The translations under genes were made by a program, and so were the position numbers. Positions 19,023-57,324 of a stretch of DNA of 64,000 nt are shown in pieces. Source of the DNA: Dyella subtropica (GTDB lineage: Bacteria; Pseudomonadota; Gammaproteobacteria; Xanthomonadales; Rhodanobacteraceae); assembly GCF_026283965.1 (NCBI RefSeq), contig NZ_JAPDPD010000006.1, positions 1-64,000 on the forward strand, in the 5' to 3' direction. The notes under the pieces are model-generated. The model had not been told where the DNA came from, ran no database searches, and was given only the letters and a program-made list of their open reading frames with translations. Numbering within the stretch: the first letter of the stretch is position 1; every line of letters begins with the position of its first letter.

Positions 19023-19213
19023 GCTTACCGCCCCCTGATTGGTCCTTCGCGAGATATCGGTGTTACGGCAGCGGATGCCAGGCCGGAGTGCATTCCGGAA
19101 TGGAGGCCGCAAGCTGGGCGAGTATAGGCGGCTGCCGGCGTGCGGCCAGCTAGCTGCGCTGCTGTGTCGTTGGCCCATGACGTGGTCTTTCATCAGCCAA
19201 CTGCACAAGCGTT

Positions 19214-21033: not shown

Positions 21034-22416
21034 TCAGTCATCATCCGTTTTCGCTCGGCCAGGACGCTCAGGTGGTCTTGCCGCAGCAGGTCGCTCCAAG
21101 GCGTTCCCAGTCGTTGGTTCAACCGCCCCCGTCCCGTTATCCGCGTCTTCCGGCAATTGCGCGGGATCGTAATGATTGTGGGGATTCCATAGCATCCAGC
21201 CGTCGGTGCCTTCGGCTTCGGCGGCATCGACCTGGAGGCGAATTTCTTCCGCGCCGAAGACACGATGATCGAACGCATAGTCGGGAAATGCCTGCAGCCA
21301 GGGCCTGAATCGTGTGCTTGGCAACCCGCTACGCGCCACAGCATTCGCCAGGGAGCGTCGGACAATGTCGCCGGGTGTAGCGGTCGGATGAGGGTAGTCC
21401 GGTATGCCCCAGGTAAAGCCTGACGGGTAGAGCATCGGTGACAGATAGTCGACGGACGTACTGATTAGCTCCAGCTGCTGTCCGATCGCTGTGTCATTTG
21501 TGTTCCAGCAGACATAGCCAAAAATATCCGCCGCGACGAAAACGTTGTACGGGGCGAGGCGAGATTGCGCAGCCCGCAGAAACCCGTCGATCGCCTGCGT
21601 ACGGCTGGCTTCCGTACTGGGGTGCATGAAACGCAGCCCTTGTGCGTCAGGAAAGCGGACATAGTCGAACTGGATTTCGTCGAAGCCCAATTGGGCTGCT
21701 TCCTCGGCAAGGGCGATATTGTGGTTCTGCGCATCACTGGAGAACGGATCGATCCATTGCAGGTGCTCACGGTCTCGCCAGAGCGAACCGTTCGTGGTGT
21801 GCACGGCCCATTGAGGATGGGCACTGGCGAGTGGATCGTCTTTGAAGACGACGATGCGGCCGATCAAGTAGAAGCCCCGGCGATGCAGGTTCGATAGCAG
21901 TTCGGCGAAATCGGTTAAATGCGGCGCTTTCACGGCGTGCCCGGTAGCGCCATCGCTGTCGCGCGCCTTGCTCTGGTAGGGAGTGACGCCACGATCCCCC
22001 TTTACGTCGATCACCAGCGCGTTGATGCCGTTAGTCACCTGAAGTTGCACAGCGGCCTCACGAAGCGCAGCGTTCGTTATGCCAAATGCAGAGAGGTAAA
22101 CCGCCTTGGGCCGAAATGGCGTCAACTCCAGATGCAGTTGCGCATCACCGTTCGGCGCCACATCGACTTTGCTGCGCAGATAGCCCGGAGCACGGGCAGA
22201 AACGCTATCAACGGAACCGCTGTAAACGAATGCGCCACCCGCATCAACCGGCAGCACCTGTCCGTTGATGGTGACGATCGCTCCGGGCACGGGGCGTTGG
22301 GTAAGTTCGTCGATGACAACGCCGCGGACTTCATGCGATTCCTCTGCACGCACCCAAGCGCTCATGGTCGCTGCCCATGCCACCGCGCAGATCGCTAAGC
22401 GCCAGGCTGCCGTCAT
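21034..22416 (-). CDS. Putative glycoside hydrolase (DUF4015), PgaB C-domain-like
   Basis: This 460-residue exported protein has a signal peptide (hydrophobic stretch to about AWVRA, residue 24). A carboxypeptidase-regulatory-like beta domain follows (VRGVVIDELTQRPVPGAIVTI). A TIM-barrel-type domain comes next (KAVYLSAFGITN, ALVIDVKGDRG, FDEIQFDYVRFPD, YVCWNTNDTAIGQ, YLSPMLYPSGF). That domain is DUF4015-like, related to the glycosidase half of PgaB. The first ATG overlaps the deacetylase stop by 4 bases (22413-22416), so the two are translationally coupled. Probable role: cleavage or modification of a secreted, partly deacetylated polysaccharide. The C-terminus is a proline-rich charged tail. 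Confidence 0.75.
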   Translation of the reverse strand: MTAAWRLAICAVAWAATMSAWVRAEESHEVRGVVIDELTQRPVPGAIVTINGQVLPVDAGGAFVYSGSVDSVSARAPGYLRSKVDVAPNGDAQLHLELTPFRPKAVYLSAFGITNAALREAAVQLQVTNGINALVIDVKGDRGVTPYQSKARDSDGATGHAVKAPHLTDFAELLSNLHRRGFYLIGRIVVFKDDPLASAHPQWAVHTTNGSLWRDREHLQWIDPFSSDAQNHNIALAEEAAQLGFDEIQFDYVRFPDAQGLRFMHPSTEASRTQAIDGFLRAAQSRLAPYNVFVAADIFGYVCWNTNDTAIGQQLELISTSVDYLSPMLYPSGFTWGIPDYPHPTATPGDIVRRSLANAVARSGLPSTRFRPWLQAFPDYAFDHRVFGAEEIRLQVDAAEAEGTDGWMLWNPHNHYDPAQLPEDADNGTGAVEPTTGNALERPAAARPPERPGRAKTDDD

Positions 22417-23261
22417 GGTAGAGGACCGCCAGACGCCTGATTCCGAGGCTGCGGTTCGCCAAGGCGACGCGCCAGTCGGTCGGGCGTATCTTCGTCAAGG
22501 ATGAGATAGCGCGGCAGCGCCAACATCGCATCATCGCGGCGCACCGCGCGTGCAACCAGGGTGAAGCCCGCACGGTAGTTGGCCTGCGCAGCGAGTGCCG
22601 TCAATTCGTCGTCGTAGATACCAAATGGCCAGGCCAGCATGTCCACCGGTTCGCCCAGCTCTTGCTCGATCCGCTCGCGTGAACGAGTCAATTGCGCCAA
22701 CACGAACCGCCGAAACTCAGTTGGGGCCAGACGCCGACGTTCGGTCTTGAAATTCGGATGCCACCACGTATGCGACTGCACGTCGAACAGCCCGGTATGG
22801 CGCAGCGCACGCAGCTGATCCCAGGTCAGGGCATAGGAGGCATTCGAAATGGCCGAGGGGTAGATGAATAGCGTGACGGGTATGTTCTCGCGCTTTGCGA
22901 TCGGCAGCAGGATCTCGTGCACAGAGCGATGGCCGTCGTCGGCCGTCAGCACAACAGTCTTGGGTGGCAAGGTGGCAGAGGGATCGCTGCGCCAGCGTAT
23001 GACGTCGCGCAGTGGCGTGAATTGGAAACCATGATCGCGCAGGAATTTGAGTTGCGCTTCGAAACGCTCGGTGCGCACCGTCATGGAGTCAACCGGCGTG
23101 GCTGCGAACCGGTGATAGACAAGAATGACAACCTTAGGGCTCGCCGTCTGAACGGGTTGCGCAGCCCCGAGATTTAAGAGGGTATACGCGAGGCAAAGAA
23201 ATATCCCGGCGATCAAATCAGGTAATCGCCTGCCCAGACGCCATGAAGATGAGGTTGGCAT
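22413..23261 (-). CDS. Polysaccharide deacetylase, CE4 family
   Basis: This 282-residue protein has an N-terminal signal or anchor (LIAGIFLCLAYTLLNLGAA). The catalytic domain opens VVILVYHRF. The metal-site motif TADDG is a variant of TFDDG, and SHTWWHPN supplies the two histidines. AWPFGIYDDE follows. All three metal ligands are therefore retained. It would remove acetyl groups from poly-N-acetylglucosamine or a similar polymer in the periplasm. It is the first gene of an operon with the glycosidase-like gene, the two halves that PgaB carries in one chain. Confidence 0.85.
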   Translation of the reverse strand: MPTSSSWRLGRRLPDLIAGIFLCLAYTLLNLGAAQPVQTASPKVVILVYHRFAATPVDSMTVRTERFEAQLKFLRDHGFQFTPLRDVIRWRSDPSATLPPKTVVLTADDGHRSVHEILLPIAKRENIPVTLFIYPSAISNASYALTWDQLRALRHTGLFDVQSHTWWHPNFKTERRRLAPTEFRRFVLAQLTRSRERIEQELGEPVDMLAWPFGIYDDELTALAAQANYRAGFTLVARAVRRDDAMLALPRYLILDEDTPDRLARRLGEPQPRNQASGGPLP

Positions 23262-23648: not shown

Positions 23649-26600
23649 ATGTCATTAGAAGATAGGAATGAATGGTTGTTGCAGGGTATGAATATCCACC
23701 CTCTTTCAAGTCCGCAACTGGACATCTACCACGACCAATTGCTGAAGGGCGGCGCTCCGACCTATAACATCGGTGGATATCTAGATTTCTTTGGTGCGTT
23801 GAATGCCGAAAATTTTGAAAAGGCGTTTAATTTTGTCATTAAAATGCACGACTCTCTCAGAATCAGGCTGGTAGAGAGAGGGGGCGAAGTTCCTGGGCAA
23901 TATATCGCGCAAGAAGTCTGGAGTTCGCTGCCATTTTTTGACTTTTCCGGTCGCGCGGCACCGCACGATGATGCGCAAACGTGGATTCGCGAAAATATCA
24001 ACACCCCATTTGATCTGATAGGGCGCCCGCTTTTTCGATGCGCTCTGATAAAGCTTGCCAAAGATCGCTTTTATTGGTTCATTTGCGCTCACCACCTGGC
24101 CGCAGATGGTTGGTCGATGGATACGATCTTCCAATCTTTCGCAAAAATATATAGCGCCATGGAAAGGCAGGAAGAGCCTGGCCTTGAGGCGCCATCCTAT
24201 ACTAGGTTCATTGAGTCGGATAAAAGTTACCTAAAATCCAAGCAATTCGATAAAGACAGGAAGTATTGGCTTGGGAAATATAGTGATATCCCCGACCCGC
24301 TTCTGTCTCCACGGCATCAAGATCATTTAATAAACCAAGCGGCAGCCAGTGGCGAATGTCGATGGAGGCTTTCGCCTGCTTTGGATAAAAACATAAACGC
24401 GCTGGCCGCCAAGCATGAGTCGACACGATTCCAGGTCATGCTTGGCGTTCTTTATGCATTTTTCTTAAGGCTTGAGCAGCGCGATGAACTGACCATCGGG
24501 CTATCCGTACTGAACCGAAAGGATGCCGATTTCAGAAAAACATCCGGAATGTTCACGAACGTTGTGCCGATGAGGCTGCCATTCGATGCGAACGGATCTT
24601 TCATCGATCTGCTCAAGTTGATCGCTCCTTCGCTAAGACAGGACTATCGACACCAGCGATTTCCGATTGGCGAATTGAATAAGAGTCTCGGCTTATTCAA
24701 AAGCCATCGATCCCAGATTTATGACCTATCCATATCGTACGAAAACGGCGGGGGCGCATTGATCTTTGGGGACACCTCTGCTTTCGGTGTGAAGTGTACC
24801 AACGACTACGAGAGCACGCCCTTAAGGTTGTGCATCAGAGATGACCTGCATCGTAAAGAGACGACGATGTATTTCATCTTCAGCCGATCCTATTTCAATG
24901 ATGAGGAGATCAAGGAGCTTCAGGACCGATTTACCTGTTTCACGGATGCGTTGTTGTCGAACCCGCACTGCCCGCTTGCGTCGCTGTCGATCGTCACCGC
25001 CAAGGAGATGGAACATTTCGCGTCCTGGAATGCAACCAACGTTGCCTTCCCTAGCGACACGTGCATCCACGAACTATTTCAGCGCCAGGTGGAGCAGCGA
25101 CCGAACGCCGTAGCCGTTCTACAAGGTCGTGCATCGCTTACGTATTCCGAGCTCAACGCCCGAGCCAATCGTTTGGCTCATCACCTGATAGCGCTTGGAG
25201 TGCGCCCCGACGACCGCGTTGCCCTATGTGTCGAGCGCAGCCCGTCCATGATCGTTGGCTTGCTGGCCATCCTCAAGGCCGGCGGCGCCTATGTGCCGAT
25301 GGATCCGGCTTATCCCGCCGAGCGCCTGACCTATGTGCTGCAGGATGCGCAACCTGCGCTCTTGCTGGCCGACAGGTCCGGTCGACTGGCTTTGGGGGCA
25401 CTGTCCGCGCCACCGGCAACGCTTGATCTCGATAACGCCTCCTCGGAGTGGGCGGAATTACCTGCTCACAATCCTCGGGTCGGCGATCTGTGTTCGCAGC
25501 ATCTCGCTTACGTTATCTACACTTCCGGCTCGACCGGACAGCCCAAGGGGGTGATGGTCGAGCATCGCAACGTCTGCCATCAGGTCGTCGCGCTACAGCA
25601 GGCATTTCGCCTGCGTGCCGAAGATCGCTTGCTGCAGTTTGCGTCGCTGGCGTTCGACATGTCGGTGGAGGAGGTCTTTCCCGCTTTGCTCACTGGCGCC
25701 ACGCTCGTGCTGCGAACCGACGAGTGGCTGAGCTCGCCTTCCGCGTTCGTCGCGTTCTGCGCCGAGCACCAACTGACGTCGCTCAATCTTCCCAGCACGT
25801 TCTGGGCCCAGCTGGCATTGGCGCAGCCCGAGCTTGAACTCCCACTCACGTTACGCCAGGTGAGCGTCGGAGGCGATGCGATGAGCCTATCGGCGGTCTC
25901 CGCGTGGCTAAGCCGAACCGGCCATCGACCTCAGCTCTTCAATGCTTATGGCCCCACGGAGGCGACCGTCAACGCGACCTTGCTACATGTAGAGCGGGCG
26001 CTTCAGGCGTCGTCGATCGGTCATCCGATCTCGAACACGCAGATTTACCTGCTCGACGCTCACCGCCAGCCGGTCCCGATCGGGGCTGTTGGCGAGTTGT
26101 ATATCGGCGGTGCCGGTGTGGCCCGTGGCTACCTCAACCGCCCCGAGCTGACGGCTGAGCGTTTCCTGGTCGACCCCTTCTCCTCCAGCCCAGACGCACG
26201 CATGTATCGCACCGGCGACCTCGCTCGCTATCTGCCGGATGGCCATATCGAGTTCCTCGGCCGCAACGACAACCAGGTCAAGATCCGCGGCTTTCGCATC
26301 GAGCTCGGCGAGATCGAGGCCCGCCTCGCGAATCATCCCGCTGTAGGCGAGACCGTGGTGCTCGCCTTGGGCGAAGGACACGACAGGCGCCTGGTGGCCT
26401 ACGTGGTTGCACAGCCCGATGCTGCCGGCGATTCATCGCTCGTCGGCGCCTGGCGCACCTATTTGTCCGCCGAGCTGCCGGACTACATGGTTCCTGCTGC
26501 CTTTGTCCGCCTCGATGCCTTTCCGCTTACCCCCAATGGCAAGCTGGATCGCAAGGCGCTGCCTGTTCCGGATGATCAGGCGTTTGCCCGCCGCAGCTAC

Positions 26601-29600
26601 GAGCCACCTCTCGGCGAGGTCGAAATCGCGTTGGCCGCGCTGTGGCGTGAACTGCTCGGTATCGAACGGATCGGTCGCCATGATCATTTCTTCGAACTCG
26701 GCGGTCATTCGTTGATCGCCATTCGCCTGCTTGGCAGGGTTGGCCAGACATTCGACGCCGCGCTGCCGCTGGTCAGCTTGTTCAATCATCCAACGCTCGC
26801 CAGCTTGGCCAGCACGATCGACGCATCGCGCAAGAGCGGCGAGCGGCCAAAGCTGCCGCCGATTCTGCCTGTCGTTCGCGGCGAGACCGTACCGTTGTCA
26901 TTCGCGCAACAACGGTTGTGGTTCATGGCTCAGCTCGACAACGCCAGCGCGACGTACCACGTCTCGCTGGTGCTGCGCCTGGACGGTGAACTGGATCATC
27001 GTGCGCTTCGCCGCAGCCTCGACCGCCTGCTCTCGCGCCACGAGGCCTTGCGCACCGTTTTCCGTTCGATCGATGGAGATCCGTACGCGACCTTGCTGCC
27101 CGCCAGCACGCCGTTCCCTCTCACCGAATACGACGCACGCGGAGCCGGCGATACGGACGCGCTGCTGGCTCACCATACCTACGAATATGCCCATGCGCCG
27201 TTCGATCTCGAACGCGGTCCATTGATTCGCGCAGGCCTGATCCGCTTGTCCGATCGGCAGCATGCGCTGTTGCTCAGCATGCACCATATCGTCTCGGATG
27301 GCTGGTCCATCAACCTGCTGGCGCGGGAGATCAGTGCGCTGTATGTGGCGTTTTCGCAGCAGCGCCCTGATCCCTTGCCGCCTCTGCCCGTCCAATATCC
27401 CGACTATGCCAGCTGGCAGCGCACGGCACTGACGAGCGAGCGGCTGCAAAACCAGACTGATTATTGGCGAAACGTGTTGGGCGGCGCGCCCGAACTGCTG
27501 AACCTGCCGACCGACAGGCCGCGCCCTCCGCGCCAGTCGTTCGCCGGTGCCGTGGTTCCGGTGCAGATCGATCCCTCACTGACGCTACATCTCAAGCATC
27601 TTTGCCATCAGCACGGGGTTAGTCTGTTCATGCTGCTCACGGCCGCCTGGGCGAGCGTGCTGGCGCGTTTGTCCGGCCAGGACGATGTGCTGATCGGTAC
27701 GCTCTCGGCCAACCGCGAACAACGCGAGACCGAACAGCTGATCGGATTCTTCGTCAGCACGCTGGCTTTGCGCCTCGACCTGTCTGGCGAGCCGGACATC
27801 GCCGAGTTGCTGGCTCGGGTACGTCAAACGATATTGTCCGCTCAGGAAAATCAGTACCTGCCTTTCGAGCAGGTCGTGGAGATTGCGCGTCCTTCACGGC
27901 GGCTGGACCATTCGCCGTTGTTTCAGGTGCTGTTCGCTTGGCAAAGCAATGACAAGAGCACGTTCGATCTGCCGGGCATCGAGGTCGTGCAGGCCGATAT
28001 GTCGCTGGATTCGATCCGCTACGACCTGGAGCTGCACCTGTACGAGAAGGGCGACACGGTCGTCGGGGGCTTGGGCTACTCCACGGCTTTGTTCGACCAG
28101 GCGTCGATCGAACGGCATCGCGGTTACCTGATGGCGATGCTCGATGCGATGGTGGCCAATCCAGGGTTGCTGCCTGAGCAGGTGCCTCTAGTAGGACCTG
28201 ACGAACAGGCGCTGCTGGCGCGCTGGAACGACACCGCGGCGGCCTATCCTCAAGATGATGGCATTCATCGATTATTCGAGCGACAGGCCGAACGTTTGCC
28301 GCAGGCTATCGCGCTGATCCATGGCGAGCAGCAGCTGACCTATGCCGAATTGAACACCCAGGCCAATCAGTGGGCACATCATTTGCGTGCGCTTGGTATC
28401 GGTGCGGATGGATGTGTCGATCAACGCGTCGCGCTATGCGCGGAGCGTGGCTTTGGGATGGTGACTGGCCTGCTGGCTATCCTCAAGGCAGGTGCCTGTT
28501 ACGTACCGCTGGACCCTTCCTATCCGAGCGAACGGTTGCTGCAGATCCTGGCCGAAGCCGGCACCAATTTAGTGCTCTGCGACGCCGCCGGGCGCCATGC
28601 CCTCGGCCCGCAGTCGCTTACTCAGCACCATGTGCTTGACCTGGATGCGTTGCCGAAGCACTGCAGCACGCTTCCGAAAGACGACTTGGCGTCGCCCCAT
28701 GATTCGACGCCGGACCATCTTGCTTACGTCATCTATACCTCCGGCTCCACCGGCACGCCGAAGGGCGTGGCCATGCCTCACCGGCCGTTGCTCAATCTTG
28801 TCCACTGGCAACGGAGGGAGACCGAACGAGCCGGCATGCCCGCACCGCGTACCTTGCAGTTTGCCGCGCTGGGATTCGACGTGGCCTTCCAGGAGATTTT
28901 CACCAGCCTTTGCGTGGGCGCGTCATTGGTTCTCGTCGACTCTCAAACGCGTATGCAGTTCGACCGGTTGATCGAGGTGCTGCGCCGGCAACGCGTGCAG
29001 CGGATGTTCCTTCCCTACATCGCCCTCCAAACACTGGCCGAGACAGTCGACGACCTGCCAGGCGACGCTCCTGACCTATTGCCCGATCTGCGCGAAATCA
29101 TCGTCGCCGGAGAACAACTTCGCCTCACTCCGCAGATCCAGCGCCTTTTCAAGCGGCTGCCGGCCTGTTGTCTGCACAACCACTATGGGCCTACCGAGAC
29201 CCATGTGGTCACCGCGCAGGCATTGTCGCCCGAGGCCATTGCTGACTCGCCAAGTCACGTGCCCATCGGCCGCCCCATCGCCAATTCCCGCGCCTATGTG
29301 CTCGACCGATATGGCTTGCCTGTCCCGCTGGGAGCCGTTGGCGAATTGCATATAGGCGGCGTCGGCATCGCGCGCGGCTATCTTGGTCGAGCCGAGCTCA
29401 CGGCCGAGCGCTTCCTCGACGATCCGTTCGGCACGCACGTCGACGCGCGCATGTATCGCACGGGCGACCTGGCGCGGTATCTGCCAGACGGTCGGTTGGT
29501 ATTCCTGGGCCGCAACGATCATCAGGTCAAAGTTCGAGGTTTTCGCATCGAGCTCGGAGAGATCGAGGCGCGCCTTGCCGAGCACGCGAGCCTGCGCGAA

Positions 29601-32600
29601 TGCGCCATCGTCGCCCGCAACGATGCACGGGGCGAAGTACAGCTGGTCGCTTACGTGGTTCCGCTGGGTCGTTCCGATGATTTGCCGGCAACGCTGCATG
29701 CGTATCTTGGCAGTGTGTTTCCCGCATACATGGTGCCGGCCGCGTTCGTGACACTGGATACGATCCCCTTGACCGCGCACGGCAAGCTGGATCGCCACGC
29801 CCTACCTGCTCCGGATGAGCAGGCCTTTGCCCGTGCCCTCTACGAACCGCCGCAGGGCAAGGTCGAGATGGAACTGGCCAGGTTATGGCAGACCCTGCTT
29901 GGCGTAACGCAAGTCAGTCGGCACGATCATTTCTTTGAACTCGGCGGGCACTCGCTGATTGCCGTGCGGCTGCTCAGCCGAATCGCGCAAACTTTCAACG
30001 TCGAGCTACCACTGGCGACGCTGTTTGCGCAGCCTGTCCTGAGTCGCCTGGCCGAAGCGCTGATCGAACATCGCAGACCAGGCAGCGATGCGGGCTTGCC
30101 GGCCGTTCCGGTGATTGCCCGAGACGGCGTGCTGGCGCTCTCCTTCGCGCAGCAGCGGTTGTGGTTCCTCGCACAACTCGATGGCGTGAGCGCGACCTAT
30201 CACCTGCCGATGGCCCTGCGCCTGCATGGCGCATTGGATGTGACCGCACTGCGCCGCAGCCTCGACCAGTTGTTCGCACGCCACGAGGGCTTGCGCACAG
30301 TGTTTGTCACCGTCAACGGCAAGCCGCAGGTCGAGCTGCTGCCGGCCGACCAAGGCGTGCCGTGGATCGAACACGATGTGTGCGGATCGATCGATGCGCC
30401 TGCCGAGCTGGCACGTATCGTCGAGGAAGAAGCCAGCACGACCTTCGACCTCGCCGCTGGACCGCTGATCCGTGCGCGCCTGATCCGCGTTGACGAACAG
30501 GAACATGTCTTCCTGCTCACGCAGCACCATATCGTTTCCGATGGCTGGTCCATCGGCGTGCTGACGAACGAATTGAGCACGCTGTACGCCGCCTTCCTTG
30601 ACGGGCTTGCCGATCCGTTGCCGCCACTGGACATCCAGTATCCCGACTATGCCGCCTGGCAACGCCAGTGGCTCGCGGGCGAACGCCTGCACGCGCAAGT
30701 CGACTACTGGCGTCGCACGCTAGGTGATGCGCCTACCTTGCTGGCCTTGCCCACCGACCGGCCGCGTCCGCCGCAGCAGCGCTTTGAAGGCCAATTCCTG
30801 CCGGTGATACTGGATGCCGAACTGACCCAGGACCTGAAGCGACTCAGCCAGCAACATGGCACCACCTTGTTCATGACGTTGATGTCCGCATGGGCGATCG
30901 TGCTTGCGCGCTTGTCCGGCCAGGACGACTTGGTGATCGGCACGCCTATCGCCGGCCGTGGCCGTCAGGAGATCGAGCCGCTGATTGGCTTCTTCGTCAA
31001 CACGCTGGCTTTGCGCATCGACATGTCCGGAGCGCCCAAGGTGAGCGACCTGCTTGCTCGCGTTCGCCAGCTCGCGCTGGATGCGCAAGCCCACGCGGAC
31101 CTGCCGTTCGAACAGGTCGTAGACCTCGTACAGCCGCCGCGGCGCATGGATCACACGCCGCTGTTCCAGGTGCTGTTTGCGTGGCAGAACAACGACGAAG
31201 GCGTATTCGCTCTGCCGGGGTTGCGCGTGGAAGCGGAACCGGAAACGTTCGGTTGGGTGAAGTTCGACCTGGAGCTGGCCTTCGGTGAAGCCGACGGCAC
31301 CATCCAGGGCGGATTCAACTACACCACGGCGTTGTTCGACCAGGCCACGATCGAGCGTCATCGCGACTACCTGATCGCGGTGCTCAAGGCGATGGTCGCC
31401 GATGCACGGCAGCCCATCGCACGGATTGACCTGTTGGCGGCCGAGGAACGCCGTTTGCTGCTCGACACCTGGAACCAGACGGAGGCCAGTTATCCAACCG
31501 AGCTGTGTCTACATCAACTGTTCGAGCAACGCGTCCGCGAAGCGCCTGATGCCATTGCTGTGGTGCATGACGGGCAGTCGCTGAGCTATGGCCAACTCAA
31601 TGTGCGGGCGAACCGTTTGGCGCATCGTTTGCGGGCCTTGGGTGTGAGGCCGGATGACCGAGTAGCGCTTTATGTGCAGCGTAGCCTCGAGCTGATCGTG
31701 GGCATGCTGGCCACGATCAAGGCCGGCGGCGCTTATGTGCCGCTGGACCCGACTTATCCCGTTGAGCGCCTGGCGCACATGCTCAGGGATAGCGCACCGG
31801 TCGCCGTGCTTTGTCATGGGACGGCATCGGCCAGCTTGGCGCCTTATGTGGGAGCCAACGTGCCGATGCTGGACCTGCAAGCGGATAGCGAAAGCTGGAG
31901 CTCGATGCCGGCCTGCAATCTCGACGCTACAAGCGTGGGCGTCGGTGCGCGACATTTGGCCTATGTGATCTATACCTCGGGTTCCACCGGTTTGCCTAAG
32001 GGGGTGATGATCGAACACGCCAGCGTGGTCAACGAGGTCAGCGCGTTGAAGGATCATCTCGATCTGCGCGCCACGGATCGGGTACTGCAATTTGCCAATC
32101 TTTCCTTTGATACATCGGTCGAAGAAATCTTCGCAAGCTTGACCAGCGGTGCTGCCCTGGTCTTGCGCACCGACGAGTGGCTGACAGAAGCCGGAGCGTT
32201 CTGGGCGCTGTGTGAGGCGTATCAAATCAGCGTTGTGGATCTACCCGCGCAGTTCTGGGGGCAACTGGCCCTGGCACGCTTCGCTGTACCGTCCGGTGTG
32301 CGCTGGGTGGTGAGCGGCGGTGAAGCAATGAGCGAGCAGACAATCCAGGCGTGGGCTTCCGGCAGCGGCCATCGTCCACGCCTGTTGAACACCTACGGGC
32401 CGACGGAAACGACGATCGGTGTCACCGCGCATGAAGTGACGGCGCGACCTGGTGAGGGCCGGGTGATCGGGCGTCCGATGGCCAACACGCGGATGTACGT
32501 GCTCGACGACATGTTGCGTCCGGTGCCGCAGTGTGTAGCCGGCGAGCTGTATATCGGCGGCGTGCAAGTAGCACGCGGCTATCTCCATCGTCCGGATCTG

Positions 32601-34436
32601 ACGCAGGAACGGTTTCTCACCGATCCGTTTCGTCCGGGCGGGCGGCTGTACAAGACCGGCGACTTGGCGCGTTGGCAGGCGGACGGCACGTTGGAATATC
32701 TTGGCCGCAACGACTTCCAGGTGAAGATTCGAGGCTTTCGCATCGAACTGGGCGAGATCGAGGCGCAGCTGGCGAAGGTGCCGGCGGTGCGCGACCTCGT
32801 GGTGCTCGCACGCAACACTGCATTGGGCGAAAAGCAGCTGGTGGCGTATTACACCGGTGATGCATCGGTGCCGGCCCTGCGCGAGCAGGCGGTGCAACAG
32901 TTGCCGGCATACATGGTGCCGGCCGCGTACGTGCAACTGGATGCTTTGCCGCTGACGCCGAACGGCAAGTTGGACCACAAGGCGTTGCCGACACCGGACG
33001 ACGCCTCGTATGCGCATAGCACCTACGAAACCCCGCAAGGCGAGTGCGAGGAAATTCTGGCACGCCTTTGGGCGGAGCTACTGGACGTCGAGCGTGTGAG
33101 CCGCCACGACAATTTCTTCGAACTCGGCGGCCATTCGTTGCTAGTCGTGCAATTGGCGGCACGCATGCGCGAGATCTTCGAGAGGGAAGTGGCGGTACGC
33201 GACGTGTTCCGCTGCCCGGTATTGAAAGATATGGCGAACCTCGTTTCTTCCACTGAGGCCGCTCCGCCGAGCGCGCTCGATCTCAATGCGGAACTCGTAC
33301 TCGACGAAGCCATTCGCGCCTCCGCGCCTACTCAACACGGCACTCGGCCGGCGCATATCTTGTTGACCGGCGCCTCGGGTTTCCTCGGCGCTTTCTTGCT
33401 GTCGTCCTTGCTGAAGCGTACCCGCGCGACCGTCCATTGCCTGATCCGCTGCACCGACGCGGCAGAAGGCCGGTCCAGGCTCGACGCGAATATGCGCCTG
33501 CTCGGGCTGGCTGACTATGACCACTCACGCGTGTCGGTGATTGCGGGTGATCTTGCCCAGCCTCAGCTTGGTTTGAACGATGACCGCTTCAATCACCTCG
33601 CCAGCCTGATCGAAGTGATCTATCACAACGGCGCCTGGGTAAATTCGCTACACACCTACGCGAGCTTGAAAGCCGCCAATGTGCTTGGCACCCAGGAAAT
33701 CCTGCGCCTGGCCGGCCAGGGGGCGCCCAAACACATCCACTACGTTTCCACCCTGAGCACGATCCCTCCGATGGAATCGGCGAGTCCCGATATCACCACC
33801 GAAGCGCAATTGATCGAACATTGGCCCGGCCTGCCTTCCGGCTACGCGCAAAGCAAATGGGTGGCCGAGCGCCTGCTGCGCATCGGCGGCGAGCGAGGCA
33901 TTCCTTTCACTATCTACCGGCCGACGCATATCGCGGGCGCAAGCAGCAACGGCGCGAGCAACGCCAGCGATACCTGGAGCCTGTTCGTGGATGCCTGCCT
34001 GATACTCGAACGGGTACCGAACATCGAAACCAGCATCAACTCCCTACCGGTCGACTACATGAGTGACTGCATCGTGGAGCTATCGCTGCGGAAGGATATG
34101 CACGGTAAAAGCCTCAACCTGGCCAGCCCGCAGTCGTTCATGCTGAGCGAGCTGACCCGGCAGATAGCGGCCATCGAAGAGCTGGCCGTCGAAACTATCG
34201 ATTACCGTCAATGGCGACAGCTGTGTAGTGAGCATCCAGCGACCCGACGATTGGCGTCGGTCATGCCGGCCGAACTTTCGGCACATTCGACTGGACAGCC
34301 GGCATCTTCCCGGATCGAACTGAGCAATGCCGTGATCGAACTCTCCGGCGAAGGCATGCTCTATCCGCCAATGTCAGTCCATCTGCTACGGAAATTCGTA
34401 GATTGGCGCTATCGGCGATGTGTGCAACCCGCTTGA
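23649..34436 (+). CDS. Three-module NRPS with terminal thioester reductase
   Basis: This 3595-residue synthetase has the order C1 (HHLAADG at 148-154), A1 (YTSGSTG at 624), T1 (Ser1021), C2 (HHIVSDG at 1212), A2 (1696), T2 (Ser2102), C3 (2293), A3 (2775), T3 (Ser3163) and a reductase domain (from about 3236; TGASGFLG for NAD(P)H, Tyr3399 and Lys3403 in YAQSK). There is no epimerase or thioesterase. Specificity residues read by eye against GrsA are DMENSGAVNK (A1, near the Orn code DMENLGLINK), DVQFIAHVVK (A2, near Pro DVQLIAHVVK) and DTEDVGTIGK (A3, acidic pocket, basic residue likely). A C domain at the start suggests N-acylation. Expected product: an N-acyl tripeptide aldehyde or alcohol. 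An in-frame ATG at 23688 is an alternative start. Confidence 0.95.
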   Translation: MSLEDRNEWLLQGMNIHPLSSPQLDIYHDQLLKGGAPTYNIGGYLDFFGALNAENFEKAFNFVIKMHDSLRIRLVERGGEVPGQYIAQEVWSSLPFFDFSGRAAPHDDAQTWIRENINTPFDLIGRPLFRCALIKLAKDRFYWFICAHHLAADGWSMDTIFQSFAKIYSAMERQEEPGLEAPSYTRFIESDKSYLKSKQFDKDRKYWLGKYSDIPDPLLSPRHQDHLINQAAASGECRWRLSPALDKNINALAAKHESTRFQVMLGVLYAFFLRLEQRDELTIGLSVLNRKDADFRKTSGMFTNVVPMRLPFDANGSFIDLLKLIAPSLRQDYRHQRFPIGELNKSLGLFKSHRSQIYDLSISYENGGGALIFGDTSAFGVKCTNDYESTPLRLCIRDDLHRKETTMYFIFSRSYFNDEEIKELQDRFTCFTDALLSNPHCPLASLSIVTAKEMEHFASWNATNVAFPSDTCIHELFQRQVEQRPNAVAVLQGRASLTYSELNARANRLAHHLIALGVRPDDRVALCVERSPSMIVGLLAILKAGGAYVPMDPAYPAERLTYVLQDAQPALLLADRSGRLALGALSAPPATLDLDNASSEWAELPAHNPRVGDLCSQHLAYVIYTSGSTGQPKGVMVEHRNVCHQVVALQQAFRLRAEDRLLQFASLAFDMSVEEVFPALLTGATLVLRTDEWLSSPSAFVAFCAEHQLTSLNLPSTFWAQLALAQPELELPLTLRQVSVGGDAMSLSAVSAWLSRTGHRPQLFNAYGPTEATVNATLLHVERALQASSIGHPISNTQIYLLDAHRQPVPIGAVGELYIGGAGVARGYLNRPELTAERFLVDPFSSSPDARMYRTGDLARYLPDGHIEFLGRNDNQVKIRGFRIELGEIEARLANHPAVGETVVLALGEGHDRRLVAYVVAQPDAAGDSSLVGAWRTYLSAELPDYMVPAAFVRLDAFPLTPNGKLDRKALPVPDDQAFARRSYEPPLGEVEIALAALWRELLGIERIGRHDHFFELGGHSLIAIRLLGRVGQTFDAALPLVSLFNHPTLASLASTIDASRKSGERPKLPPILPVVRGETVPLSFAQQRLWFMAQLDNASATYHVSLVLRLDGELDHRALRRSLDRLLSRHEALRTVFRSIDGDPYATLLPASTPFPLTEYDARGAGDTDALLAHHTYEYAHAPFDLERGPLIRAGLIRLSDRQHALLLSMHHIVSDGWSINLLAREISALYVAFSQQRPDPLPPLPVQYPDYASWQRTALTSERLQNQTDYWRNVLGGAPELLNLPTDRPRPPRQSFAGAVVPVQIDPSLTLHLKHLCHQHGVSLFMLLTAAWASVLARLSGQDDVLIGTLSANREQRETEQLIGFFVSTLALRLDLSGEPDIAELLARVRQTILSAQENQYLPFEQVVEIARPSRRLDHSPLFQVLFAWQSNDKSTFDLPGIEVVQADMSLDSIRYDLELHLYEKGDTVVGGLGYSTALFDQASIERHRGYLMAMLDAMVANPGLLPEQVPLVGPDEQALLARWNDTAAAYPQDDGIHRLFERQAERLPQAIALIHGEQQLTYAELNTQANQWAHHLRALGIGADGCVDQRVALCAERGFGMVTGLLAILKAGACYVPLDPSYPSERLLQILAEAGTNLVLCDAAGRHALGPQSLTQHHVLDLDALPKHCSTLPKDDLASPHDSTPDHLAYVIYTSGSTGTPKGVAMPHRPLLNLVHWQRRETERAGMPAPRTLQFAALGFDVAFQEIFTSLCVGASLVLVDSQTRMQFDRLIEVLRRQRVQRMFLPYIALQTLAETVDDLPGDAPDLLPDLREIIVAGEQLRLTPQIQRLFKRLPACCLHNHYGPTETHVVTAQALSPEAIADSPSHVPIGRPIANSRAYVLDRYGLPVPLGAVGELHIGGVGIARGYLGRAELTAERFLDDPFGTHVDARMYRTGDLARYLPDGRLVFLGRNDHQVKVRGFRIELGEIEARLAEHASLRECAIVARNDARGEVQLVAYVVPLGRSDDLPATLHAYLGSVFPAYMVPAAFVTLDTIPLTAHGKLDRHALPAPDEQAFARALYEPPQGKVEMELARLWQTLLGVTQVSRHDHFFELGGHSLIAVRLLSRIAQTFNVELPLATLFAQPVLSRLAEALIEHRRPGSDAGLPAVPVIARDGVLALSFAQQRLWFLAQLDGVSATYHLPMALRLHGALDVTALRRSLDQLFARHEGLRTVFVTVNGKPQVELLPADQGVPWIEHDVCGSIDAPAELARIVEEEASTTFDLAAGPLIRARLIRVDEQEHVFLLTQHHIVSDGWSIGVLTNELSTLYAAFLDGLADPLPPLDIQYPDYAAWQRQWLAGERLHAQVDYWRRTLGDAPTLLALPTDRPRPPQQRFEGQFLPVILDAELTQDLKRLSQQHGTTLFMTLMSAWAIVLARLSGQDDLVIGTPIAGRGRQEIEPLIGFFVNTLALRIDMSGAPKVSDLLARVRQLALDAQAHADLPFEQVVDLVQPPRRMDHTPLFQVLFAWQNNDEGVFALPGLRVEAEPETFGWVKFDLELAFGEADGTIQGGFNYTTALFDQATIERHRDYLIAVLKAMVADARQPIARIDLLAAEERRLLLDTWNQTEASYPTELCLHQLFEQRVREAPDAIAVVHDGQSLSYGQLNVRANRLAHRLRALGVRPDDRVALYVQRSLELIVGMLATIKAGGAYVPLDPTYPVERLAHMLRDSAPVAVLCHGTASASLAPYVGANVPMLDLQADSESWSSMPACNLDATSVGVGARHLAYVIYTSGSTGLPKGVMIEHASVVNEVSALKDHLDLRATDRVLQFANLSFDTSVEEIFASLTSGAALVLRTDEWLTEAGAFWALCEAYQISVVDLPAQFWGQLALARFAVPSGVRWVVSGGEAMSEQTIQAWASGSGHRPRLLNTYGPTETTIGVTAHEVTARPGEGRVIGRPMANTRMYVLDDMLRPVPQCVAGELYIGGVQVARGYLHRPDLTQERFLTDPFRPGGRLYKTGDLARWQADGTLEYLGRNDFQVKIRGFRIELGEIEAQLAKVPAVRDLVVLARNTALGEKQLVAYYTGDASVPALREQAVQQLPAYMVPAAYVQLDALPLTPNGKLDHKALPTPDDASYAHSTYETPQGECEEILARLWAELLDVERVSRHDNFFELGGHSLLVVQLAARMREIFEREVAVRDVFRCPVLKDMANLVSSTEAAPPSALDLNAELVLDEAIRASAPTQHGTRPAHILLTGASGFLGAFLLSSLLKRTRATVHCLIRCTDAAEGRSRLDANMRLLGLADYDHSRVSVIAGDLAQPQLGLNDDRFNHLASLIEVIYHNGAWVNSLHTYASLKAANVLGTQEILRLAGQGAPKHIHYVSTLSTIPPMESASPDITTEAQLIEHWPGLPSGYAQSKWVAERLLRIGGERGIPFTIYRPTHIAGASSNGASNASDTWSLFVDACLILERVPNIETSINSLPVDYMSDCIVELSLRKDMHGKSLNLASPQSFMLSELTRQIAAIEELAVETIDYRQWRQLCSEHPATRRLASVMPAELSAHSTGQPASSRIELSNAVIELSGEGMLYPPMSVHLLRKFVDWRYRRCVQPA

Positions 34437-34654: not shown

Positions 34655-36184
34655 TCATCGGAAAACCTTTTGCACCAGCGTGACCAGCACGCCAAGGATG
34701 CCCAGCACGGCGATCAGCTTGAAGTGGTCGATGTTTGCCAGCATGGATGCTTGCTGCGCAAGCATCTGCGCGACCTGTGCCGTCGCCATGGCAGCGGCCT
34801 GGCCTGCGTCGACGGTGCTGGCCAGTGCATCCTGCAGGCGCTGAACGGTCGCGGCGTAAATCGGGTTGTCGGGGTTCACCTGCGCGTTGAGCACGCCGTA
34901 GTGCACGGTGGTACGCCACTGCTGGCCCAGCGTGGCCAGGGTTACGCCCAGCGCGATACCGGCCTGCGAGAGCATGCTCTTCACTTGCTGGGCATTGGAG
35001 AATACCGACTCGTCATCTTCCATTTGCCGGAACGTCTGCATTGCGGTTACCGGCAGCACGGTCAGCACGAAGACGCTGTTCATCGCCAGCGCCGGAAGCA
35101 CGTCGAGCCAGAGATTGGCCGAGGAAGTCTGGCCAGCCAATAGGGCGCCGAAAGTGGCCAGCCCGATAAAGCCTGTCACGATGTATTTACGCGGCGACGG
35201 GTATCGAGGCAGGATTTGCGACATGACCGCCCAGGTCACCACGGCAAAGCCCAGTCCCAGCGTCTGGAAGTATCCCGCCGTCTCCCATGAGTAACCCAGC
35301 GTTCGCTGCAACATCATCGGAACGATGTAGTTATTGGCGCCGAGCATGACGTAGGCAAACATGAAGAGCGCAAGGCCGGCCAGGTAGCGGGTATGCAGCA
35401 TCTCGCGGACGTGCAGCAAGGGGTGGGCGCTATCGCGCTGCCGTTGGAAATAGATCATCAGCGCCAGAACGGCCGCGCCGATCGCCACGGCGAGTGAGGC
35501 GGTGTTGCTGTAGAAGTCGTAATACACGCGCTGCAGTGCGTAGAGCAGGACGAAGCTGCCGCCTGCAAGCAGCAGCTGAAGCCACGGATTCGATGCGGAT
35601 CGCTGCTCCGGAATGGTGATGGGAGCGGCCGGTAAGGCGATGCTGCCCAGGGCGAAAGCAAGCAGGCCCAGCACGGCCAGCAGCCAATAAATGGCACTCC
35701 ATGTTTCATGAGAGACCGCCAGCGAAGCCAGCCATGGCGCAGCGGCGGTGCTCAAGGCCAGGCCGGTTGCGAGAAACTTGATGCCGACAAGGCGCTTGGG
35801 GCCGGCAAGCCAGTGATGAATCATCATGCGGGCCGCGGTGAATAGGGGGCCGCCGCCCAGGGCCATCACGATGCGGCCGATCAGGAAGGACTGGAAGTCG
35901 TCGCTGGTTGCGCACAGGACCGAACCGATCACCGAGATCGCCGTGGCGCATTGGATGAAACGGTGTCCGCCGAGCCGTTCGACGAGCCAGCGTTGCATGG
36001 AGATCACCAGGATCGCCACGCTCGCATAGACCGCGGCGATAAGGCTGAAGTCTTCCGGGGTAATGCTCACCTCGCCCATGATCGGGCCGGCAGCGAAGGC
36101 GGTCATGCCCGATTGCAGGTACTCGATCGCAGTGAGCACAAAAATCGTGGCGTAGAGCAGGTGGCCTGGGCTACGCGGAATCAT
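34655..36184 (-). CDS. MFS multidrug exporter, EmrB/QacA (DHA2) type
   Basis: This protein of about 509 residues has 14 hydrophobic segments, the normal length for DHA2 drug:proton antiporters. The start region is MIPRSPGHLLYATIFVLTAIEYLQSG. The motif-C-like GPLFTAARMMIHHW and a long periplasmic loop before the last helix (QRLQDALASTVDAGQ) fit EmrB. AGGAGA lies 8 bases before the ATG at 36184, whereas the in-frame ATG at 36214 has no ribosome-binding site. It is the last gene of an OMF-MFP-MFS operon that would form a tripartite pump across both membranes. It faces the NRPS, so export of the peptide is possible but unproven. Confidence 0.9.
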   Translation of the reverse strand: MIPRSPGHLLYATIFVLTAIEYLQSGMTAFAAGPIMGEVSITPEDFSLIAAVYASVAILVISMQRWLVERLGGHRFIQCATAISVIGSVLCATSDDFQSFLIGRIVMALGGGPLFTAARMMIHHWLAGPKRLVGIKFLATGLALSTAAAPWLASLAVSHETWSAIYWLLAVLGLLAFALGSIALPAAPITIPEQRSASNPWLQLLLAGGSFVLLYALQRVYYDFYSNTASLAVAIGAAVLALMIYFQRQRDSAHPLLHVREMLHTRYLAGLALFMFAYVMLGANNYIVPMMLQRTLGYSWETAGYFQTLGLGFAVVTWAVMSQILPRYPSPRKYIVTGFIGLATFGALLAGQTSSANLWLDVLPALAMNSVFVLTVLPVTAMQTFRQMEDDESVFSNAQQVKSMLSQAGIALGVTLATLGQQWRTTVHYGVLNAQVNPDNPIYAATVQRLQDALASTVDAGQAAAMATAQVAQMLAQQASMLANIDHFKLIAVLGILGVLVTLVQKVFR

Positions 36185-36216
36185 GGCGAGGTTCTCCTGG
36201 GTCACATCGGCCATCG

Positions 36217-37401
36217 CTACTGGTTGGCCGCGATGATCTTGTCGACCAGGGCATCCGCGCTGACCAGCTCGCGGGCGAATACATCGGTCTGGTAACCGTG
36301 CCCGGGCGAGCCAGGGGTGACTAATCGGCTTCCATCGCGCTTCCCGGTATCGACGTTGACCTTCATCGACAGGCCGAGCTGTAGCGGGTGCTGGGCGACT
36401 TGGCGCGGATCGAGCGCGATGCGGATCGGCACGCGTTGCACGATCTTGATCCAGTTGCCCGTTGCGTTCTGCGCAGGGAGCAGGGAGAAGGCGCTGCCGG
36501 TGCCGGCGTCCTGGCCCATCACGGTGCCTTGGTAGACGACGTCGCCGCCGTAGACGTCGGCGACCAGCGTGACGGGTTGGCCGATACGGATATGCCGCAG
36601 CTGGGATTCCTTGAAGTTGGCATTGACCCACAGATGATCCAGCGGCACGACCGACATCAGCGACATACCCGGATTGATCTTTTGGCCCACCTGCACGCTG
36701 CGCTTGGTCACCACGCCCGTCACCGGCGCAGGGACGGCCGTACGGTAGGCGGCGACATAAGCGTCCCGTACCTGCGACGCCGCAGCGAGCACATCGGGGT
36801 GGGAGGCGATCGAGGTCCGGTCGATCAGGGCCTGGCTGCCGGCTAACTGCTGGCTGGCAACGCCTAGTCCCGCGGTGGCCGCGCGAACCGCTTCCTCGGC
36901 GTGCTTGACCTCTTCGCCGGAGATGGCGCCGCTGGCCACGAGTTCCTGCCGGCGGATCAGGTCCGCCTTGGCTTTGGCGAGCTCGACCTCGCGCAGCTCC
37001 AGGTTGGCGCGCGTCTGTCCCGCCGTAGCGTATTGAGCGCGCACCTGTCGCACGGTTCGAGCGAGCTGGGCTTCGGCCCTGGACAGGGCGAGTTCGGCGT
37101 CGACATCGTCCAGCTTGACCAGGATCGTCCCGGCATGGACGAAGTCGGTGTTGTCCGCGCCGATGGCCGTCACGACGCCATTGACCTGGGACGTCACCGA
37201 GACCACGTTGCCGTCCACGTAGGCATCCTCGGTGGATTCCCGATACTGTCCCGCGGTTGCCCAGTAGATGGCAGCGCCGATAACGCCCAGAGCCAGCACA
37301 GCGGCACCCGCGGCTTGCTGCCAGCGCGAGCCGCGGATTGGGTTGGGGGCAATGGGACTCGGGCTTTCGCTGGCCGGTGCTTTGGCTACTACAGCATTCA
37401 T
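36217..37401 (-). CDS. HlyD/EmrA-type membrane fusion protein
   Basis: This 394-residue protein has one N-terminal membrane helix (AAGAAVLALGVIGAAIYWAT). A lipoyl-like half follows (DAYVDGNVVSVTSQVNGVVTAIGADNTDFVHAGTILVKLD in part), then a coiled-coil hairpin (about 100-200) and a beta-barrel domain (VTGVVTKRSVQVGQKINPGMSLMSVVP). It links the MFS pump to the outer-membrane channel. The start at 37401 follows GGAG and overlaps the upstream stop by 4 bases (37398-37401). It ends just before the MFS gene. Confidence 0.92.
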   Translation of the reverse strand: MNAVVAKAPASESPSPIAPNPIRGSRWQQAAGAAVLALGVIGAAIYWATAGQYRESTEDAYVDGNVVSVTSQVNGVVTAIGADNTDFVHAGTILVKLDDVDAELALSRAEAQLARTVRQVRAQYATAGQTRANLELREVELAKAKADLIRRQELVASGAISGEEVKHAEEAVRAATAGLGVASQQLAGSQALIDRTSIASHPDVLAAASQVRDAYVAAYRTAVPAPVTGVVTKRSVQVGQKINPGMSLMSVVPLDHLWVNANFKESQLRHIRIGQPVTLVADVYGGDVVYQGTVMGQDAGTGSAFSLLPAQNATGNWIKIVQRVPIRIALDPRQVAQHPLQLGLSMKVNVDTGKRDGSRLVTPGSPGHGYQTDVFARELVSADALVDKIIAANQ

Positions 37402-38906
37402 GACTTGGCTCCGTCGGATGTCAGGATGGGTTGACGCTGCCTGGATCCGGCACGCCATGGTGCATACCCGCCGCCAAGCGCTCGTATGAGGTTCAGTCGC
37501 AGTTCGCGCTGACGTGTCTGCGACTCGATGGCCAGCCGCTTCTGCGCGAGCACCTGGCTTTCGGCCGAGAGCACTTGCAGATAGTTCGCGAGCCCGCTGC
37601 GATAGCGATTCGTGGCAAGGTCGTAGGCGTGCTGGGTCAGGCGGAGCGCGTCATCCTGTTCCTGGATTTCCTGCTCCAGCCAATGCAGCGATACCAGCTG
37701 ATCGACCACGTCGTGGATGGCGGCGATGACGGTGGCGTTGTATTTCTCCACGGCCGCGTCGTATTCGGCTTGATGCGCACCCAAGTTGCTGCGCAGGCGA
37801 CCGCCCTCAAAAATAGGCAGCGAAATGGCCGGGCCGATGCCCAATACTCGACTGCCGCCGGACAGGAACTCACTGAGCCCAAGGCTCTGCGATCCGACGA
37901 ACGCGTTGAGGCTGACATTGGGATAGAACTGCGCCTTGGCGACCGTGATGTCCTGCCGGGCCGCTTCCACTCGCCAGCGTTCGGCGACGACATCTGGTCG
38001 GCGTCCGATCAGCTCGGCGGGCAGGTTGGTCGGCAAGGCGACCGGGCCTACCTGCGCCAGGTGCGGCCGCTGAATGGTCAATCCTGCGTCCGGCGCTTTT
38101 CCTTCCAGCGATGCGATCTGGTTATTGATCAGGGCGATCGACTCGTGGATCGATGCGATGCGCTCGCGTATCTCGGGCAACGCAGCTTCAGCCTGGGTCA
38201 GCTCCAGTTGGGAATCGATTTGCGCGGCCACGCGCTGGCGGGTCAGCTCCAGCGTTTTTTCGCGCTGCGCCAAGGTGTCTTGCGCGAGATCCAGCTGCGC
38301 GTACGCCAGATCCAGCCGCAGGTAGGTTCTGGCCAGCGTGGTCGTGAGAATCAGGCGTGCTGCCTGAAGGTCGACCTCGGTAGCGCTGGCCCGATCGAGC
38401 GCGGCATCGACCGCCGCGTGATTCTTGCCCCAGAAGTCGAGTTCGTAGTTCACGCCCAGCGAAGCGTCGTTGACCGAATCCCAGGTGCCGGCGATGGGCC
38501 TGGGCACCAGCGCGTGTTCGCCAAAGCGCTGCCGAGTGCTCTTCAGGCTGCCGTTGATCTGGGGGTAGAGCGTCGACTTGACGATGCCGGCTACGGCTTC
38601 GGCCTCTCGCACTCTGGCCTCGGCGATACGCAGGCTGGGTTGTCCGCGCAAGGCCTCGCTCATCAGCCGGTCGAGCTGGTCGTCGCCAACGTCCGCCCAC
38701 CACGCATCCCTCGGCCAGGTCGCCGCCGAAAGCGTGGTGGAGGACAGGCTTTCGGCGACAACCAGTTGATCGGCGTCGATCGGTTTCGCGCGGGTAGGTT
38801 GGCCGCCCGAACTGGCGCAAGCCGCCAGCGTAGTGATGATGAGCGCCGACAGCGCACGCCGGCTGAATCGCGCGGCGGAGGGCGGGTGTTGAACAGGATG
38901 GAACAT
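37398..38906 (-). CDS. NodT-family outer-membrane efflux lipoprotein
   Basis: This 502-residue protein has a lipoprotein signal (LSALIITTLAACAS; lipobox LAAC). Two OEP repeats follow (DDQLDRLMSEALRGQPSLRIAEARVREAEA, and later RRPDVVAERWRVEAARQDITVAKAQFYP), the TolC/OprM fold. NYELDFWGK and ISLPIFEGGRLRSNL are typical signatures. It forms the outer-membrane channel of the tripartite pump and is the first gene of the operon. The start at 38906 is chosen from the lipoprotein signal and an AAGGG upstream; the longer frame to 39149 lacks homology. Confidence 0.92.
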   Translation of the reverse strand: MFHPVQHPPSAARFSRRALSALIITTLAACASSGGQPTRAKPIDADQLVVAESLSSTTLSAATWPRDAWWADVGDDQLDRLMSEALRGQPSLRIAEARVREAEAVAGIVKSTLYPQINGSLKSTRQRFGEHALVPRPIAGTWDSVNDASLGVNYELDFWGKNHAAVDAALDRASATEVDLQAARLILTTTLARTYLRLDLAYAQLDLAQDTLAQREKTLELTRQRVAAQIDSQLELTQAEAALPEIRERIASIHESIALINNQIASLEGKAPDAGLTIQRPHLAQVGPVALPTNLPAELIGRRPDVVAERWRVEAARQDITVAKAQFYPNVSLNAFVGSQSLGLSEFLSGGSRVLGIGPAISLPIFEGGRLRSNLGAHQAEYDAAVEKYNATVIAAIHDVVDQLVSLHWLEQEIQEQDDALRLTQHAYDLATNRYRSGLANYLQVLSAESQVLAQKRLAIESQTRQRELRLNLIRALGGGYAPWRAGSRQRQPILTSDGAKS

Positions 38907-39285
38907 CGTGGCGACCCTTAGGCTTGCGTGGACATAACGACTGGATACCAAGGGCGTCGCTCCCCTAGTGACTGACGACTTTCGGCAAGAGCGCGCCTTG
39001 CATGGACACGGCCGGCAGCGGGAGCTTGATCGGTTCGCTTCCCCGCGATGGCCCACACGAGCCGTTGGGCCGGCTTGATTGCGCCGGCATGCTTCGAGAC
39101 CAGATGATGGGCATGCGGCGGCTCGTACCAGCTTTCGCCTTGCGTACAAAACACCATCCCGCCGAGGAGACCGCAGTGCAGCGTCCGACTCGCGTTGGTC
39201 GGTTGTATTGACGCAGCCCTGTCTTTAACCCGGAGATGCCCCTCTCCGGATGAAAGACAGGAGCATGCAGAACATCACGCGGGCG
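38907..39285. other. 379-bp gap between efflux and PHB operons
   Basis: It contains the efflux-operon promoter and the tail of the PHB transcript. The only structure I see is the hairpin at 39218-39261. No regulator gene for the pump is present. Confidence 0.4.
39218..39261 (-). terminator. Two-part hairpin downstream of phaB
   Basis: An outer 9-bp stem (39218-39226 with 39253-39261) encloses an inner CCGGAG/CTCCGG stem (39230-39235 with 39244-39249). It lies 25 bases past the phaB stop and probably ends the five-gene transcript. There is no strong U tract. Confidence 0.5.
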
Positions 39286-40029: not shown

Positions 40030-40056
40030 CACTTCGTCTTTCTCTCGTTCTTGAAC

Positions 40057-40578: not shown

Positions 40579-40666
40579 AGCGGGTCCTTATCCTTATAGT
40601 TGTCCACCGGCCGCGAGGGCAGCCATGGAGTGCGGCATGGTGAAGTCGAAACATCGACCCGGCTTG

Positions 40667-42696: not shown

Positions 42697-42725
42697 GCTT
42701 CGGTTATCCGAGAAAGAGAATGGGC

Positions 42726-52920: not shown

Positions 52921-53030
52921 TGGTTTGCACGACATAAGCCGCCCGCAGGGCGAGGGTCATGAATGGCCCGAGTGAAACGGCCTGATAGGGCCGCGCTTTT
53001 TTCGACAGCGGTCCTGCTAACGTAGGGCTT

Positions 53031-53054
53031 TCGCGCACAGGGTGCGCTCCTACG
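53031..53054. repeat. REP-like element at a gene end
   Basis: CGCGCACAGGGTGCGCTCCTACG is the short palindromic sequence I know as a frequent REP in Pseudomonas and Xanthomonadales (GTAGGAGCGCACCCTGTGCGCG). It overlaps the stop codon of the TPR gene. The 53-base stretch before it also carries short GC-rich hairpins. Confidence 0.7.
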
Positions 53055-55073: not shown

Positions 55074-55112
55074 GGGCGAGCTTCTTGGCGGAGGTGGGGC
55101 GATTCTAGTCTG

Positions 55113-55333: not shown

Positions 55334-55381
55334 GGGCTTTCCCGAAGCTTGGGTGAGCGCGGTTCGGGTCACGCTAAGGGT

Positions 55382-56410: not shown

Positions 56411-56413
56411 GGA

Positions 56414-57229: not shown

Positions 57230-57324
57230 GCGCGGATTCTAGCCGATGCCTGTGATGCGGCTGGCGTGGATGCCTGGGGCGCCCGCCGAGCCCGGTGGTT
57301 GGTGCCTGCAATTATTTACAAAGC

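Follow-up and report, generated by a model that had tools for sequence, protein, structure and literature searches.

The window, by which we mean the whole 64,000-nt stretch of DNA that was analysed, opens contig C43 of the host genome (G000; a draft assembly of 4.95 Mb in 46 contigs) and carries a long NRPS gene at 23649..34436 on the plus strand. The gene raises two questions: what the encoded assembly line would release, and whether its last module belongs to the family in which the rest of it is found. The 10.8-kb ORF is intact, with an ATG start and no internal stops, and encodes a 3595-aa protein of the order C-A-T-C-A-T-C-A-T-R. A Pfam scan revealed three copies each of Condensation, AMP-binding, AMP-binding_C, and PP-binding, one NAD_binding_4 (thioester reductase) domain at the C-terminal end, and no thioesterase domain. 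The C, A, and T motifs HHxxxDG, YTSGSTGxPKG, and FFELGGHSL are each present three times. The A10 lysine is found in all three A domains, in two by pattern search and in the second (HGKLDR) by reading of the translation. Both GASGFLG and YxxxK are kept in the R domain, so that the last T is followed by a terminal thioester reductase (GxxGxxG, YxxxK) without a thioesterase, as in reductively released NRPSs. Pfam and the motifs thus match the domain order given in an earlier note, which was made from the sequence alone, and support the reductive release that it predicted.

Modules 1 and 2 and the T3-R part showed dN/dS values of 0.14–0.22 when compared with four orthologs; the gene is therefore under purifying selection and more than a chance ORF. 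The first condensation domain (C1, approximately 23685..25000, plus strand), recognised by its motif, has 7c1k/7c1h as its best solved relatives, which we take to be starter C domains; the acyl start proposed earlier is consistent with this. The best solved relative of C3 is Txo1. Since the Pfam domain count includes no extra epimerisation unit, an all-L product is expected. Candidate carrier-protein activating enzymes are present in the host genome. The TIGR03443 model (Lys2-type L-aminoadipate-semialdehyde dehydrogenase) scored 1049 bits against a cut-off of 1030, a sum over seven stretches of the three-module protein; Lys2 has a single A-T-R unit, and a Lys2-type identity was rejected for this reason.

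To delimit the family, we used T3-R (33096..34433, plus strand), which is orthologous throughout it. Strong relatives (E ≤ 1e-80) were found in 6 of 233 family genomes, the host included; the other five (G007, G032, G024, G203, and G150) are 66–82% identical to the window NRPS in this part. None was found at this threshold in five congeners, and among 369 genomes drawn from across the class the host alone gave a match at E ≤ 1e-90. Four relatives are single ORFs of 3591–3624 aa. The one in G032, a draft of ~230 contigs, is split into two overlapping frames, each of which was read separately; upstream of it (G032:C169; L014, L020) lies another NRPS frame, of 3339 aa, with the codes DVWHRSLVD, DAEEVGTVY, and DATHVGEVG. 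The host 16S was found in four of nine genomes, at 98% identity in congener G001, 97% in G203, 93% in Rudaea (L082), and 90% in Xanthomonas (L061). These identities place the host in Xanthomonadales and likely in Rhodanobacteraceae. None of 122 records in a plasmid search covered 80% of the query.

The surroundings of the relatives differ. Ten scanned neighbours are unlike in kind, and the search for a neighbour gene common to the NRPS loci yielded generic LysR/SDR-type matches only (29–35%), apart from a single partial pair linking G203 with G024. Since there is no convincing common flanking gene and the ten neighbours are unlike, the NRPS family has the look of a one-gene pathway that stands alone and is patchy in its distribution. 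At single loci, an AMP-binding ligase gene ~0.8 kb downstream of the NRPS in G203 (L023:7000-8691, plus strand; not common to the other loci) could load a starter acyl group, a MatE efflux gene not common to the other loci stands beside the G032 copy, and a Tle1-like type VI secretion phospholipase gene lies a few kilobases from the G024 copy (L012:15138-16520, minus strand).

In the window, EmrB/EmrA/outer-membrane channel efflux genes (34655..39149, minus strand) converge on the NRPS gene and possibly encode the exporter of its product, a link that conservation does not support. EmrA relatives of these genes occur in all five congeners (67–69%), and a clean empty site at the efflux genes was not found in these five genomes. 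On the other side, a DUF4015 putative glycosyl hydrolase gene beside a PgaB-like polysaccharide deacetylase gene (21034-23261, minus strand) is divergent from the NRPS; the pair is also present in congener G005. A ketone-body/polyhydroxybutyrate set (39286-43472, minus strand) comprises an acetoacetyl-CoA reductase-like SDR, a weak phasin match, patatin/DUF3734, 3-hydroxybutyrate dehydrogenase, and acetoacetate decarboxylase, with a divergent LysR gene at 43631. The 52039-62913 stretch, where a lipid A acyltransferase gene is followed by glycosyltransferase genes and an O-antigen-ligase-like gene, is probably a surface polysaccharide region. A 1120-aa minus-strand frame at 16527-19889 overlaps plus-strand frames 17352-18662 and 18669-19127, with no Pfam match in any of the three.

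The substrate codes are DMENSGAVN for A1 (approximately 25077..26560), DVQFIAHVV for A2 (approximately 28203..29816), and DTEDVGTIG for A3 (31404..33068, right limit approximate), all on the plus strand; their nine variable letters are identical to those read by hand in the earlier note, whose tenth letter, K, is the A10 lysine. Of the six family NRPSs, four carry the A1 code DMENSGAVN and the other two DMENIGAVN, and the A2 code is DVQFIAHVV in all but G150, which has DVQFAAHVV. In a quickly built tree with 103 A domains, 58 of 100 inner branches were well supported and 27 open; A1 and A3 both fell within a basic clade. The A1 code resembles that of hydroxyornithine, DMENLGLINK. A siderophore (hydroxy-Orn) reading is less likely, as the only hydroxylase match was a partial one barely above the cut-off (27 bits against 21, over 66 positions). 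The sister rows of A1 include the code DVESIGGVT, reported for Arg/homoarginine in an excerpt of PMC12283262. Overall, A1 looks specific for a basic residue, with Orn the likeliest. A2 was read as Pro because its code fits the Val236/Gln239 pattern that the same excerpt describes as typical of Pro codes.

The A3 code agrees at 7 of 10 positions with the Arg consensus D-(A/V)-E-D-(I/V/L)-G-A-(V/I)-(T/D)-K, and at 6 of 10 each with DGEDHGTVVK (Lys) and DMEDVGSVDK (Orn, also Lys), all as printed in that part of PMC12283262. In a section of PMC3207962, DGEDHGTV, predicted there for Lys without biochemical proof, is paired with the bacitracin Lys code DAESIGSV; A3 matches the former at 5 of 8 positions and the latter at 3 of 8. 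For neither A1 nor A3 was a matching code found in the text of the open-licence PMC papers searched. By letters, the nearest code among the best 80 of 589 loci is DTEDIGTIV of L070 (7 of 9), a domain that the tree placed in a separate, cyanobacterial clade. The window A3 belongs to a 19-row clade (support 97) whose labelled members are all basic-residue A domains, and within it groups (88) with four Pseudomonas domains of code DAESVGTI(I/V) and with DMENMGAVN of P. mediterranea. One Pseudomonas line, L079, reads DAWPLGNVV, DLKNVGSDV, DLEHNTTVS, and DAESVGTII, followed by two thioesterase domains, which fits the tolaasin end printed as Ile-Hse-Dab-Lys in the portion of PMC3039948 consulted if codes and residues are paired in order. 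Since the last domain of this line, with its tolaasin-like Lys end, groups with A3, Lys is the best single guess for A3, which looks to be of the basic type, with Arg or Orn as alternatives. The basic-Pro-basic order proposed earlier thus agrees with the codes and with the clade of A1 and A3, and its Lys/Arg/Orn call at the third position is supported as a class.

Given these assignments, A1-T1 would load a basic amino acid, probably ornithine, and C1 would acylate it; C2 would couple the acylated residue to proline on A2-T2; and C3 would add the third residue, again a basic one (Lys, Arg, or Orn), supplied by A3-T3. NADPH-dependent reduction of the thioester by the R domain would then free acyl-Orn-Pro-(basic)-al, and the aldehyde may be reduced further to the alcohol or cyclise onto an amine or guanidine of a side chain. 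The earlier note allows for aldehyde and alcohol in its text, though its title names the aldehyde alone. We put the aldehyde as the mature product just short of an even bet. It is also possible, if doubtful, that the R domain of the same line carries out a four-electron reduction, giving an acyl tripeptide alcohol with a lysinol, argininol, or ornithinol end. The closest solved reductase to the window R domain is MxaA; the myxalamid and myxochelin A synthetases are given as alcohol-forming in an excerpt of PMC2835699, and Nodularia aeruginosins are known in both argininal and argininol forms according to a part of PMC3765200. However, the nostocyclopeptide, lys2, and saframycin R domains are aldehyde-forming in the former excerpt, with identical conserved motifs, so that the outcome is not decided by sequence. 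It is unlikely that the aldehyde is only an intermediate on which the P1 side chain or a free Orn amine closes to a cyclic imine, an aminal, or a 12-membered macrocyclic imine (ring sizes by our own reckoning): A1 and A3 both look basic, so amines can be near the aldehyde, and condensation of NRPS aldehydes with amines is described in a passage of PMC7586950, but the starter-like C1 implies that the alpha-amine is probably acylated, and no cyclising partner gene is common to the loci.

The third module sets the window NRPS apart from its family. In contrast to DTEDVGTIG of the window, the A3 code is DAFTIAAVC in four of the five relatives and DAFSVVAVC in the fifth. The canonical Phe code is DAWTIAAVCK, and because of their likeness to it all five were read as Phe-type. 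To locate the departure, we compared the window protein block by block with the orthologs in G007, G024, G203, and G150. Over residues 1–2100, window-ortholog identities (68–80%) were similar to ortholog-ortholog ones (65–76%), and the same was true of T3-R (66–81% and 61–78%). In C3, the window was 58–63% identical to the orthologs, which were 71–81% identical to each other; in A3, the respective values were 51–52% and 70–84%. In 50-residue steps, the median identity was 76% before residue 2100, 56% to residue 3150, and 75% after it. Nonsynonymous distances between the window and the orthologs reached 0.24–0.26 in C3 and 0.34–0.35 in A3, compared to 0.10, 0.15, and 0.18 (C3) and 0.09, 0.14, and 0.18 (A3) between G203 and G007, G024, and G150, respectively; in the remaining blocks, the window-ortholog and ortholog-ortholog ranges overlap. 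Judging from this comparison, C3-A3 of the window NRPS is foreign to its family, while the orthologous T3-R has been kept.

A probable source for C3 was found in the host genome, which is rich in NRPSs. A second reductase-ended NRPS is encoded on contig C44 (G000:C44:20392-40812, minus strand; loci L015-L017). It has 6806 aa and six A domains, with codes DVENVGAVD, DALVIGGVC, DFWNIGMVH, DSALLGEVW, DVQFIAHVV, and DALVIGAVC, the fifth of which is Pro; its R domain is 55% identical to that of the window NRPS. The A3 domains of the five relatives form their own clade (100), which adjoins A2 and A6 of the C44 NRPS. At its N terminus, the C44 NRPS seems to have a C domain without the first half, and it may continue from another gene. 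From the LGGHSL motif of T2 (~29919) through C3 to the C3-A3 linker (31403), the plus strand of the window shows 87–100% DNA identity, in 45-base steps, with the T5-C6 part of the C44 NRPS. C3 itself (~29.92–31.40 kb) shares ~96% DNA and 97% protein identity with C6, the last C domain of that protein. The next best among the 17 matches listed was C5 of the C44 NRPS (70%), with the other 14 at 59–68%, three orthologs of the window NRPS (62–63%) among them; this search scored at most 7 candidates in each genome. Over 474 codons, 41 synonymous and 22 nonsynonymous changes separate C3 from C6 (dN/dS 0.17), as would be expected of a fairly recent, yet constrained exchange. Because it is the window NRPS that departs from its orthologs here, the comparison favours the C44 NRPS as the donor of C3, across the Pro junction common to both.

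The A3 block begins at the linker, ends shortly before T3, and could not be matched to either the orthologs or the C44 NRPS. A donor was sought among the 31 A-domain matches of the host genome, several of which may be fragments belonging to a single domain, in the 233 family genomes, with at most 6 candidates scored in each, and in the best 80 of the 589 confirmed loci from genome contigs. None was found: apart from A3 itself, the highest identities were 56%, 56%, and ~57%, respectively. By these matches the foreign stretch has two origins, C3 one and A3 another. That the mosaic is an assembly artefact fusing pieces of two NRPS genes is very improbable, even though the draft is in 46 contigs and has many NRPS stretches that resemble one another. 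The two copies of the C block must both be real, as they are told apart by ~63 differences over 474 codons; the return of T3-R to orthologous sequence requires two joins; and nothing else in the host genome exceeds 56% identity to A3.

Together, the codes and the mosaic make it probable that an acyl-Orn-Pro-Phe-al/-ol line has been naturally re-specified, by rebuilding of its third module, to acyl-Orn-Pro-(Lys/Arg/Orn)-al/-ol; the relatives would still make the Phe analogue. The earlier note missed this point: with five other family members Phe-type at A3, both C3 and A3 are non-native in the window NRPS. Pro-Phe suits chymotrypsin-/subtilisin-like enzymes and Pro-basic suits trypsin-like ones, so that P1 of the product would have changed from Phe, with chymotrypsin/subtilisin-like targets, to a basic residue with trypsin-like targets. 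More tentatively, and at somewhat under even chances, the two-donor rebuild of the last module switched the reactive P1 of a peptide-aldehyde family and thereby re-aimed the inhibitor from the former proteases to the latter. If the re-specification is true, the reductase accepts a new last residue once the preceding C and A domains are exchanged. Re-engineering of reductase-ended NRPSs is hard, with no general approach deducible according to a passage of PMC7586950. Here, the last residue was apparently changed by nature ahead of a kept T-R, with readable exchange points at the T2 LGGHSL motif, in the C3-A3 linker, and just before T3, and the five Phe-type relatives are ready controls for R-domain tolerance and for the link between P1 and target protease.

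Among known systems, the MxcG (myxochelin) and AusA (aureusimine) NRPSs are reductase-ended like the window NRPS, and their NCBIfam models match it below the curated cut-offs (1875 of 2300 and 1994 of 2500), the best stretch of the MxcG model being residues 2162-3587, the whole last module. Both have fewer modules and other starters. Leupeptin, to which the product was previously likened, is acyl-Leu-Leu-argininal. It would share with the predicted product an acylated tripeptide aldehyde with a basic P1, but neither A1 nor A2 has a Leu-type code and P2 is Pro. No peptide aldehyde of Rhodanobacteraceae was found among the matches listed from the open-licence PMC literature. More than leupeptin, the predicted layout resembles the nearest described one that we found, that of the reductively released fatty-acyl aeruginosins (acyl-Tyr-Choi-argininal/argininol) and spumigins (Hpla-Hty-Pro/mPro-Arg or Lys derivative) of Nodularia spumigena, as given in a part of PMC3765200. 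As described there, these are N-acylated short linear peptides with Pro or a Pro-like residue at P2, a basic P1, and reductive release, as predicted here. However, their P3 is Tyr or Hty, whereas residue 1 of the window NRPS is basic (DMENSGAVN); their cyanobacterial clusters are multigene and include Choi/methylproline genes, while the window line is a single gene of a gammaproteobacterium with no such genes among its Pfam-scanned neighbours, as judged by family names. The likeness is one of layout.

The rebuilding itself also has precedents. According to the portion of PMC8097286 consulted, NRPS recombination is mostly confined to the A-core, the C-A linker and Asub being retained, and C-A exchanges are exceptions. 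As in the cases described there, replacement of an A domain would have altered one residue of a conserved peptide line. In contrast to A-core-limited recombination, the window NRPS differs from its orthologs in C3, in the linker, and in Asub alike, with two sources for the replaced stretch, and it is, on this comparison, an unusual example of a known recombination process.
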